The translations under genes and the position numbers were made by a program. This document shows positions 3,919-5,994 of a DNA stretch of 53,372 nt, piece by piece (the stretch's first letter is position 1; each line of letters starts with the position of its first letter). This stretch comes from Lachnospiraceae bacterium (GTDB taxonomy: Bacteria; Bacillota; Clostridia; Lachnospirales; Lachnospiraceae). The notes below the pieces were generated by a model. The model was not told the DNA's origin. It ran no database searches and saw only the letters and a list, made by a program, of their open reading frames with translations. Location of the stretch: positions 1 through 53,372 of the forward strand of contig JAFYHV010000049.1 of the NCBI GenBank assembly GCA_017538995.1, read 5' to 3'.

Positions 3919-4821
3919 ATGGGGTTTTTTAATGATTTAAGAGAAGATCTTGCATCTGCAGTCAATCAGCTGACTGATGACAAATCCGAAAATGATATCG
4001 AGATTTCATCAAAGCAGATGAAAGATGAAATAGCAAAAAAAGAAAAGAAGAATAAAAAAGATAAACGCAATAACGAAAATCTTGAGCATGAAATCAAGAA
4101 TTATCTTAATATTTCCGAAGAAAGCGAAGAGGCTTCAAAAGAAGAAAACAATTCTGAAGATAATTCGTACAATCTTGAAATGAATTCTGATTACGGATTT
4201 GAAAACACATCTAACGAAGCGAATGCTCCTATTGAGGAAAAAGTGTTTGAAAATGTAGTTGAAGAAGAGTTTGTTGGTTCAGAGGAATCGGATAATATTA
4301 CAGAAGAGGCTAAAGATTTTATGGAGAATACTTTTATATCCAACGATCAAACTGCATATGATGCTGAAACAAGCAATGATTACAGCATTATCAGTAAAGG
4401 CAGCATTGTTCACGGAGGCATTGATACAACAGGCAGCATCGAAATTCACGGTATAGTTGAAGGCAGCGTAAAAGCTAACGGAGAACTTATTTTATCAGGT
4501 TCAATTACCGGTAATGTTGAAGCTCTTATAATCTCTGTAAACGCAGGAAAGATTCGCGGAAATGTAAAAGCATATAACGGCATTTATATAAGTGAAGATT
4601 CAATTCTTATCGGAGATATTGAATCCACAGAAGCTGAAATCGGCGGTGCAGTTAAAGGTAAAATCGATGTAAACGGACCTGTAGTTCTTAAGTCTGATGC
4701 AAAGGTTTTAGGAGATATCGACTGCAAGAGCGTACAGATTAATAATGGCGCAGTTATAGAAGGAAAATGTTCACAGAAATATGCTGATGTTTCGCCCAGC
4801 AAATTCTTTGAGAACCTGTAA
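3919..4821 (+). CDS. Bactofilin with a long acidic N-terminal extension
   Basis: A 300-residue protein. About 160-275 form the bactofilin (DUF583, polymer-forming cytoskeletal) right-handed beta-helix, seen as repeated Gly/Ile steps such as SIVHGGIDTTGSIEIHGIV, EGSVKANGELILSGSI and AEIGGAVKGKIDVNGPV. Residues 1-155 are charged, Glu/Asn/Ser-rich and probably disordered. Bactofilins polymerise without nucleotide and position wall enzymes at the membrane. The gene directly follows the deacetylase, with a GAGGAA ribosome site inside the end of that gene, so the two are probably coexpressed and the filament may localise the deacetylase (inference). Most bactofilins are 120-200 residues, so the extension is notable. 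Confidence 0.88.
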   Translation: MGFFNDLREDLASAVNQLTDDKSENDIEISSKQMKDEIAKKEKKNKKDKRNNENLEHEIKNYLNISEESEEASKEENNSEDNSYNLEMNSDYGFENTSNEANAPIEEKVFENVVEEEFVGSEESDNITEEAKDFMENTFISNDQTAYDAETSNDYSIISKGSIVHGGIDTTGSIEIHGIVEGSVKANGELILSGSITGNVEALIISVNAGKIRGNVKAYNGIYISEDSILIGDIESTEAEIGGAVKGKIDVNGPVVLKSDAKVLGDIDCKSVQINNGAVIEGKCSQKYADVSPSKFFENL

Positions 4822-4826
4822 GGTAA

Positions 4827-4854
4827 TTGACAAACATTTAATATTATTTATAAT
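4827..4854 (+). promoter_or_regulatory. Near-consensus promoter of the small RNA opposite the toxin
   Basis: TTGACA (4827-4832), 16 bp, TATAAT (4849-4854). Both boxes are perfect consensus. It starts 6 bp after the bactofilin stop, and no + strand gene follows for 450 bp, so its product should be a small RNA starting near 4861. Confidence 0.8.
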
Positions 4855-4860
4855 TAAATT

Positions 4861-4946
4861 AGGTGCTACCGATAGACGGTTGCCAAAGTTGAAATTAAAA
4901 AAAGTTTTAATAACCGCTCAGTAGCATTGGGCGGTTATTTTTTTGC
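4861..4946 (+). ncRNA. Predicted ~85-nt antisense RNA (antitoxin RNA)
   Basis: Transcription from the consensus promoter should start at the A of AGGTGCTACC (4861) and end at the terminator ending near 4946. The first 25 nt can form a hairpin pairing CTACCG with CGGTTG across an ATAGA loop (one mismatch). The 3' half is antisense to the last codons and terminator of the minus-strand toxin mRNA. No ribosome site or reading frame is visible in it. Its convergent arrangement, small size and strong promoter resemble RNA II of the par/Fst systems and RatA-type antitoxin RNAs. The RNA itself is inferred, not observed. Confidence 0.65.
4909..4946. terminator. Bidirectional terminator shared by toxin mRNA and antisense RNA
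   Basis: AATAACCGC (4909-4917) pairs with GCGGTTATT (4931-4939), extended by three inner pairs around a GTAGCAT loop. On the + strand it is followed by a T run. On the minus strand a run of seven T follows after a 5-nt gap. The toxin stop codon lies in the right arm. Confidence 0.8.
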
Positions 4947-5030
4947 ATCTTTTATGATCTTGTAAACAAGACCAATAAGAGCGATTATCATTATAATTAA
5001 CTGAATTAAATCAGTTAAAGTAACGTTCAT
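4935..5030 (-). CDS. Small hydrophobic peptide, putative type I toxin (holin-like/Fst-like)
   Basis: A 31-codon frame encoding MNVTLTDLIQ, then a single hydrophobic helix LIIMIIALIGLVY, and a basic tail KIIKDAKK. This is the layout of Fst-, TxpA- and 'putative holin-like toxin' peptides: short polar head, one membrane helix, charged tail. The start is supported by AAAGGGGGTGAT (5034-5045), a strong ribosome site 3-7 bp before the ATG. An extended -10 promoter lies at 5118-5146. The mRNA of about 200 nt is convergent with the antisense RNA at 4861. It is below the size most gene callers report. The membrane-toxin role is inferred from architecture; no homology search was possible. Confidence 0.7.
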   Translation of the reverse strand: MNVTLTDLIQLIIMIIALIGLVYKIIKDAKK

Positions 5031-5110
5031 CGCATCACCCCCTTTCCTAAGAATGAAGGGTGAGCACCCTTCGAAAAAGGGTAACCGCCTACCGTTTCAT
5101 GGTAACACCT
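5031..5110 (-). promoter_or_regulatory. Structured 5' leader of the toxin mRNA
   Basis: Read on the minus strand, the leader starts AGGTGTTACC, the same 10 nt (one change) as the antisense RNA. A perfect hairpin GAAGGGTG/CACCCTTC follows (5055-5072). TCACCC from that arm can instead pair with GGGTGA of the ribosome site (5034-5045), which would block translation. GGCGGTTA near the 5' end (5082-5089 on this strand) is perfectly complementary to TAACCGCC at the 3' terminator (4930-4937), a possible long-range 5'-3' lock like those of several type I toxin mRNAs. Structures were paired by eye. Confidence 0.5.
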
Positions 5111-5117
5111 AAAAAAG

Positions 5118-5146
5118 AGTATAACAAATTTCAATTTTATTGTAAA
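5118..5146 (-). promoter_or_regulatory. Toxin promoter
   Basis: On the minus strand: TTTACA, 17 bp, TATACT, with TGT just before the -10. Transcription should begin at 5110-5111, exactly at AGGTGTTACC. Confidence 0.7.
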
Positions 5147-5301: not shown

Positions 5302-5994
5302 ATGCGTATACTTTTAAAATTAAGCGGCGAAGCTTTAGCCGGTGAAAAGAAAACAGGATTTGACGAAGAAACAGTTTTAATGGTTGCCCGTCAGGTAAAA
5401 GAGATTGTAGACAGAGGAACCGAAGTCGGAATTGTAATCGGCGGCGGAAACTTCTGGAGAGGCAGAACAAGCGAAAACATTGACAGAACAAAAGCAGATC
5501 AGATTGGTATGCTTGCGACTGTTATGAACTGCATTTATGTATCTGAGATTTTCAGATCTGTAGGCCTTGAAACAAATATCCTTACACCTTTCGAGGTTGG
5601 TTCTTTTACGAAGCTTTTCTCCAAAGACAGAGCCAATAAATATTTTAAAAGAGGCCAGGTTGTATTCTTTGCAGGCGGTACCGGACATCCTTATTTCTCA
5701 ACCGATACACCTTCGGTTTTAAGAGCCATCGAAATTGATGCGGATGTTGTTCTTCTTGCCAAATCAATCGACGGTGTTTACAGCGACGATCCGAAGAAAA
5801 ATCCCAACGCCGTTAAGTACGATGAAATCAGCATTAACGATGTAATTGCGCAGAACCTTCAGGTGGTTGATATGACAGCATCAATCCTTGCAAGAGACAA
5901 CAAAGTTCCGATGTGGATTTTCCCTCTGTTCGAAGAGAACTCAATTGTTAATACACTTTACGGCGAATTCAACGGAACCAAAATCACCGTATAA
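5302..5994 (+). CDS. pyrH: UMP kinase
   Basis: Phosphorylates UMP to UDP with ATP, a cytosolic hexameric amino-acid-kinase-fold enzyme that starts supply of UTP and CTP. The 230-residue length is normal. The N-terminus LLKLSGEALAG, the GGGNFWRG loop (about 48-55), the DQIGMLATVMNCIYV helix and GGTGHPYFSTDT are family hallmarks. The start ATG has GGAG at 5290-5293. It is followed by frr, the usual neighbour, but separated by its own promoter. In many genomes pyrH lies straight after tsf; here the envelope genes and the toxin locus are inserted between them. Confidence 0.97.
   Translation: MRILLKLSGEALAGEKKTGFDEETVLMVARQVKEIVDRGTEVGIVIGGGNFWRGRTSENIDRTKADQIGMLATVMNCIYVSEIFRSVGLETNILTPFEVGSFTKLFSKDRANKYFKRGQVVFFAGGTGHPYFSTDTPSVLRAIEIDADVVLLAKSIDGVYSDDPKKNPNAVKYDEISINDVIAQNLQVVDMTASILARDNKVPMWIFPLFEENSIVNTLYGEFNGTKITV

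Follow-up and report, generated by a model that had tools for sequence, protein, structure and literature searches.

The 53,372-nt contig JAFYHV010000049.1 of a Lachnospiraceae bacterium (the window; all coordinates are those of the whole stretch) carries at positions 4827–5146 a locus that is very probably an intact type I toxin–antitoxin-like module, with a putative membrane-peptide toxin on the minus strand facing a predicted antitoxin RNA on the plus strand. Type I modules are well known, and the first-pass annotation of this DNA had already taken the locus for a compact example, a reading that it would have given up if relatives lacked the peptide or if the peptide decayed in the manner of synonymous sites. 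Neither of these sequence-level results was seen, the peptide being conserved and free of neutral decay, and the type I-like reading therefore stands as the best one. We infer that both RNAs are transcribed and that the peptide is toxic. A minus-strand mRNA running from about 5110 to about 4900 would encode a 31-residue single-helix membrane peptide, harmful if freely made, and CCC-rich leader segments upstream would fold the Shine–Dalgarno (SD) site of the toxin away. The plus-strand RNA (4861–4946) would overlap the last codons of the toxin and its terminator hairpin and silence the toxin, most likely through pairing of the 3′ ends followed by RNase cleavage, as happens in TxpA/RatA. The 5′ hairpin of the antitoxin, a copy of the leader element, might also compete for leader segment B and take the place of segment A, such that the mRNA stays closed. 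At the level of sequence, this reading is supported by the conservation of peptide and RNA, by the structure of the RNA, by concerted 5′ elements, by the predicted SD occlusion and by the loss of toxins where antitoxins are kept. Loci and genomes are cited below by L and G numbers, G000 being the genome of the window itself.

The peptide gene (4935–5030, minus strand; 31 amino acids, MNVTLTDLIQLIIMIIALIGLVYKIIKDAKK) has the sequence, position and strong ribosome site originally described, and its hydropathy reaches 2.47 over 17 residues. A search of 99 genomes, the window's own included, listed 40 matches, three of which (G006:C13, G001:C112 and G027:C8) lie in frames of 144–542 amino acids and were excluded as belonging to different proteins. 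At E ≤ 0.05 the peptide is present in 23 of the 99 genomes, family members here being 27–36 residues long, and all 13 named records that match it are titled Lachnospiraceae, with an identical peptide in Lachnospiraceae bacterium G41 (L033). Gene callers are likely to overlook peptides this short, of about 30 residues. Across ten group-1 peptide genes the pooled pS was 0.499 and the pooled pN 0.154; dN/dS ranged from 0 to 0.34 in the nine pairs listed, and the L001 and L005 genes differ by two changes only, both synonymous. The gene evolves as a protein under purifying selection, and it is conserved, small and hydrophobic, as type I toxin genes are.

The window peptide scored 15.1 bits against the Hol_Tox family (PF16935), below the curated cut-off of 23.3. 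In the peptide family as a whole, 18 of 29 members match Hol_Tox at E ≤ 1, and the cut-off is passed by peptides of the relatives L013, L015, L016 and L032 (four of the ten scanned) and by that of L107/L112 (one of ten in a second scan). The window peptide can be aligned with these relatives and is a divergent relative of Hol_Tox, linked to that family only through the chain that they form. Weak kinship to PepG1 (NF041589, NCBIfam) was also seen, with 23 of the 29 members matching below the cut-off (best 4.4e-7); the window peptide itself, at 17.4 bits, falls far short of the equivalog cut-off of 70. The annotation-based and, for the window peptide, weak link to Hol_Tox would also suit a benign small membrane protein, such as a regulator or stress peptide, under an ordinary antisense regulator and with no toxicity. 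We consider this improbable, since there is this weak kinship to the type I toxin PepG1, every examined peptide gene has its RNA, the SD is predicted to be buried, and the toxin promoter, leader and start have been lost repeatedly while the antitoxin and its promoter were kept.

Opposite each of the 37 peptide genes examined, by patterns and by eye, lies an RNA whose 5′ element is of one kind, and none stands without the RNA motif. In the window this RNA, of about 86 nt (4861–4946, plus strand), is predicted to overlap the toxin mRNA and to have its own promoter at 4827–4854, with a −35 element TTGACA (4827–4832) and a −10 element TATAAT (4849–4854) separated by a 16-nt spacer. This promoter had been called near-consensus and proved stronger than that: it scores 12/12, a value attained by none of 200 shuffles of the same stretch, and the antitoxin promoters in groups 2 and 3 are weaker (8–10/12). 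The minus-strand toxin promoter (5118–5146; TTTACA-17-TATACT) does have the extended −10 element attributed to it, with TG preceding the −10, and scores 10/12; taken singly it is within chance, 20% of 200 shuffles of this AT-rich stretch reaching the same score.

The antitoxin RNA is conserved in sequence and structure and opens with a hairpin element, AGGTGCTACCGATAGACGGTTGCC (4861–4884, plus strand), consisting of the P1 arms, a P2 helix (ACCG/CGGT) and a loop. The P1 arms coevolve, in that 52 distinct arm pairs, one misparsed row (L131) included, gave −5.07 kcal/mol in cognate combination and −4.37 when permuted (0/5000 permutations); permutation, in this and all later tests, does not remove shared ancestry, a limit that belongs with the contrary points gathered further on. 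The stem also covaries, with 59 double-change cells against 2–7 when the pairs were slid, on an alignment that was fitted to the structure. When folding was compared with 200 shuffles, z was −2.91 for the antitoxin RNA and −6.18 for the toxin mRNA.

Covariance models, a check that had been proposed along with the type I reading, match antitoxin RNAs well beyond the window, across the Lachnospiraceae. Model R1, built from 16 antitoxins, matches 50 of the 99 genomes at E ≤ 0.01. Only 84 of its matches, down to E 9.7e-4, were classified, 49 of them with an automatic open reading frame (ORF), and many of the 84 face peptides of a second kind (for example MLMLTIDGLIAVLALIGTVFGLGYTFGYYHGKSQK); none of the four second-kind peptides that were scanned matched a Pfam family above its cut-off, or Hol_Tox at E ≤ 1. 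The broader model R2 (77 sequences) matches, at E ≤ 1e-4, 165 of 396 Lachnospiraceae genomes and 138 of 280 genera, with up to 11 matches per genome, and 13 of 299 genomes across the phylum, three of those 13 again belonging to the Lachnospiraceae. Among 39 R2 loci used in neither model, 25 have a small hydrophobic ORF with an SD opposite the RNA, counting three that look atypical (L194, L195 and L201), and 14 have no qualifying ORF; the control rate was 0.13% of 5481 positions. At the gathering score of Rfam the window gave only a tRNA and 15 relatives' loci only a cobalamin riboswitch, so that at this score, for the window and these 15 loci, an RNA class common across the Lachnospiraceae is uncatalogued. 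The riboswitch lies near the G043 copies (L019, 39–239) and is an ordinary one. Searches of the open-access literature found no description of this RNA class, of its breadth within one family or of its same-sense 5′ element, and T1TAdb or other literature may list it. The Lachnospiraceae are major gut and rumen bacteria, and if the reading is true the antitoxin RNA is present in about two of every five family genomes sampled, one with 11 copies.

A toxin held in check by an RNA antitoxin predicts that the toxin can be lost and the antitoxin kept, and this asymmetry recurs. Strong antitoxin matches among those of R1, defined by 39 bits plus a promoter of 9/12, numbered 67; an intact toxin gene accompanies 37 of them and, by the script's rule, none accompanies 30, five of which (L115, L126, L144, L147 and L149) still have a toxin frame that is long or broken. 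An automatic ORF at G009:C95:23685 was not accepted, being taken for the end of a glycosyltransferase gene. The mean antitoxin promoter score is about equal in the two groups, 11.16/12 with an intact toxin and 10.97/12 in the orphans, and the toxin and antitoxin searches are each biased to their own part, not to the partner. One orthologous site has an intact module in G014 and G003; there, G000 and G005 have suffered different deletions of the toxin promoter, leader, SD and start, the antitoxin remaining in both. At the site of the window itself, beside pyrH, which was located in 29 of 31 genomes of the genus, G000, G005 and G014 have the full module, and G023 and G007 retain the antitoxin with a toxin remnant only; the PyrH protein of G023 is identical to the window's, and the G007 module lies in the opposite orientation. 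In the remaining 24 genomes the pattern used by the script picked out no module motif within 560 nt upstream of pyrH.

Orphan antitoxins might be kept for protection in trans against incoming or paralogous copies (anti-addiction), an idea that we hold tentatively and that would add to the type I reading, not replace it. The window's own genome offers a case: its orphan G000:C158 agrees with the antitoxin of the intact G014 copy wherever the two align and has kept its promoter, and a search of G000 with the G014 peptide gives only a 13-residue remnant at that orphan and two more distant copies. Recent decay would explain the orphans equally, however, detection is biased to intact antitoxins, and the G000 assembly is 96% complete in 173 contigs. 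With so many cases in nature of a toxin lost beside a surviving antitoxin, the persistence of orphan antitoxins becomes a directly testable question.

In the toxin leader of the window the SD segment D (GGAAAGGGGG; 5038–5047, minus strand) is predicted to be buried, with an unpaired probability of 0.01–0.02, and over 27 loci the mean was 0.14 against 0.30 with shuffled leaders, being lower in 25 of the 27. Upstream of it on the same strand, segments A (5073–5083), B (5065–5072) and C (5055–5062), together spanning 5055–5083, are predicted to pair alternatively, either A:B with C:D or B:C with A:D, and D is hidden in both. Over 55 loci, one misparsed row (L188) among them, segment A of the toxin coevolves with B/C (−9.04 against −6.75 permuted, 0/4000) and with the SD part (−8.23 against −7.47, 0/4000). 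The leaders of L121, L140, L142, L146 and others, of the second kind and of some other toxins, have in common a TTACATAGAAA..GAAATC-like segment between C and the SD. A long-distance pairing between the two ends of the toxin mRNA (GGCGGT with AACCGCC) is visible by eye in many loci and is not claimed here, because loci with an ACCCGTC-type terminator (L003, L022, L023, L109 and L110) lack it.

The 5′ end of the toxin leader (5079–5110, minus strand; AGGTGTTACC..ACGGT-AGGCGGT-TACCC) is a same-sense copy of the antitoxin 5′ element with AGGCGGT added. Same-sense similarity between the 5′ ends of toxin and antitoxin RNAs was found in 26 of 26 loci (p ≤ 0.017), and the copied arm is concerted within loci. 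In a first set of 41 rows (32 distinct) 4.38 of 5 letters were identical in cognate pairs against 3.16 in permuted ones, and in 22 rows (19 distinct) from unused loci the values were 4.32 and 3.41 (0/10000 in each set); 23 new loci had an ORF as well as a leader match, and the second set takes in 22 of them, L201 having been dropped. By eye, the arms agree between the toxin and antitoxin copies and the loops differ.

Such elements need not act as RNA. They could be DNA operators for a transcription factor acting at both starts, or could have been homogenised by recombination between inverted repeats, and it fits with this that the element sits at both predicted +1 sites, that its first part is near-palindromic (AGGTGCTACC) and that the toxin's own 5′ arms show no hairpin coevolution. 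The antitoxin arms, on the other hand, coevolve as a stem, segment A of the toxin coevolves with leader segments B/C and D, and loops that differ between copies whose arms match are unlike the product of gene conversion; on balance we judge a DNA-level role unlikely.

If the element does act as RNA within a type I module, the antitoxin copy could act on the toxin leader, and a weak signal points this way. In pairing with B/C the copy has a slight advantage over permuted copies (−6.33 against −5.82, 36/4000), and the corresponding counts were 181/4000 for the SD part and 159/4000 for the whole remaining leader. More broadly, and as a speculation that we would advance with some reserve, the Lachnospiraceae as a whole may hold an uncatalogued class of antitoxin RNA by which membrane peptides of several kinds are silenced through same-sense mimicry of the leader, not through a complementary 5′ end, with many stand-alone copies that may protect against toxin. 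Two other pairing schemes were rejected. Complementary 5′ repeats of the par type fail because complementarity does not exceed that of shuffles, and a strand-swap model, in which the 5′ arm of each RNA pairs with the 3′ arm of the other, fails because cognate pairs gain nothing in trans energy over permuted ones.

Several results weigh against the type I-like reading or parts of its mechanism. Complementarity between the antitoxin 5′ end and the toxin leader lay within that of shuffles in 24 of 26 loci (p ≥ 0.13; the exceptions are L017, p 0.037, and L029, p 0.04), duplex z running from −1.42 to 1.55 over the loci. In the strand-swap test the toxin 5′ with the antitoxin 3′ arm gave −3.46 against −3.71 permuted and the antitoxin 5′ with the toxin 3′ arm −3.43 against −3.27 (796/5000), on 33 typed rows comprising 27 of the 41 in the first set and six hand-picked from the 22 in the later one; the 5′-arm identity of these rows, 0.89 against 0.76, is not independent of the concert tests. 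The two 5′ arms of the toxin RNA show no coevolution with each other (−2.83 against −3.18), and SD occlusion in L003 and L016 is no better than in shuffles. The window antitoxin lacks the CCC of the copied segment (GCCAAAG), giving −3.4 kcal/mol where the cognate mean is −7.27; with the segment damaged in this way the leader-copy step would be weak here, and 3′ pairing may dominate. The R1 and R2 searches detect only loci that still have an antitoxin. Finally, the toxin-strand terminator is weak in the window and in several relatives, in which the T run is good only on the antitoxin strand.

That last point modifies the claim of a common terminator. On the plus strand it holds, with a good hairpin at 4909–4939 and a T run that extends the feature to 4946, the complement of the run providing the terminal Lys codons and stop of the toxin. 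The minus strand has the hairpin as well, with a displaced T run (TTAAAACTTTTT...), and no terminator was scored there; the terminator is thus not clearly bidirectional. The locus is flanked by a bactofilin gene (3919–4821) and pyrH (5302–5994), named after the first-pass annotation and the appearance of the proteins. From the stop codon of the bactofilin gene to the antitoxin promoter no terminator-like site was seen on the plus strand (window 4780–4909), and transcription of bactofilin may therefore run on into the antitoxin and stop only at its terminator.

The genome of the window holds two further intact copies on contig C136, at 63.5 and 68.7 kb within a polysaccharide gene cluster, besides the antitoxin-only copy on C158. 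Both C136 copies (L004, G000:C136:62000-70500) lie among what appear from their proteins to be glycosyltransferase and nucleotide-sugar genes, and copies in several relatives adjoin apparently the same glycosyltransferase start. At the end of another contig, 19 nt (G000:C20:25-43, L212) are identical to the antitoxin 5′ core and may belong to an additional copy that the contig edge truncates. In L143 (G078:C1:68517-71993) five antitoxin copies stand within about 2 kb; as called by script, the toxin ORF is intact beside two of them and reduced to a remnant beside the other three. Searches of phage, plasmid and viral-contig collections for the module gave no matches, and an origin from any of these was rejected on that ground. 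The original statement that the locus does not look like a plasmid or phage remnant is borne out to this extent; the module is patchy, multi-copy and found at different sites, and so is not a fixed chromosomal gene either.

The layout and the buried SD point to control of the par or the TxpA/RatA kind. Among known systems, TxpA/RatA and SprG1/SprF1 share with this locus a small membrane peptide and, convergent with it, an RNA that overlaps at the 3′ end; they differ in that the overlap here is short, the peptides are of 27–36 residues, and the 5′ element is same-sense. SprG1/SprF1 was itself identified through homology with TxpA/RatA, according to the relevant part of PMC8309996, and most members of the present family match PepG1 at sub-threshold scores, as given above. 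Type I systems of Clostridioides difficile (CD2517.1-RCd8 and others), as described in PMC6563280, are likewise convergent pairs with previously unannotated small toxin genes in Clostridia; judged by that description they differ in having a long complementary region, and the terms 'direct repeat' and 'inverted repeat' are absent from that review. The par/Fst system of the E. faecalis plasmid pAD1, to which the locus was first likened, has, in the passages of PMC7472228 that deal with it, convergent promoters, a small hydrophobic peptide with a charged C-terminus, an RNA sharing the terminator hairpin, and an SD hidden by a 5′ stem-loop, and the layout seen here resembles it in each of these. 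The same passages give par direct repeats that make the 5′ regions complementary, and the toxin a PXXXG motif in its hydrophobic core; here the 5′ copies are same-sense with no complementary repeats, the toxin-strand terminator is weak, the alignment consensus has no PXXXG and the window peptide has no proline. Although the arrangement is par-like, the locus is thus not a member of par/Fst, and its shared 5′ element suggests a route of silencing unlike that of par.
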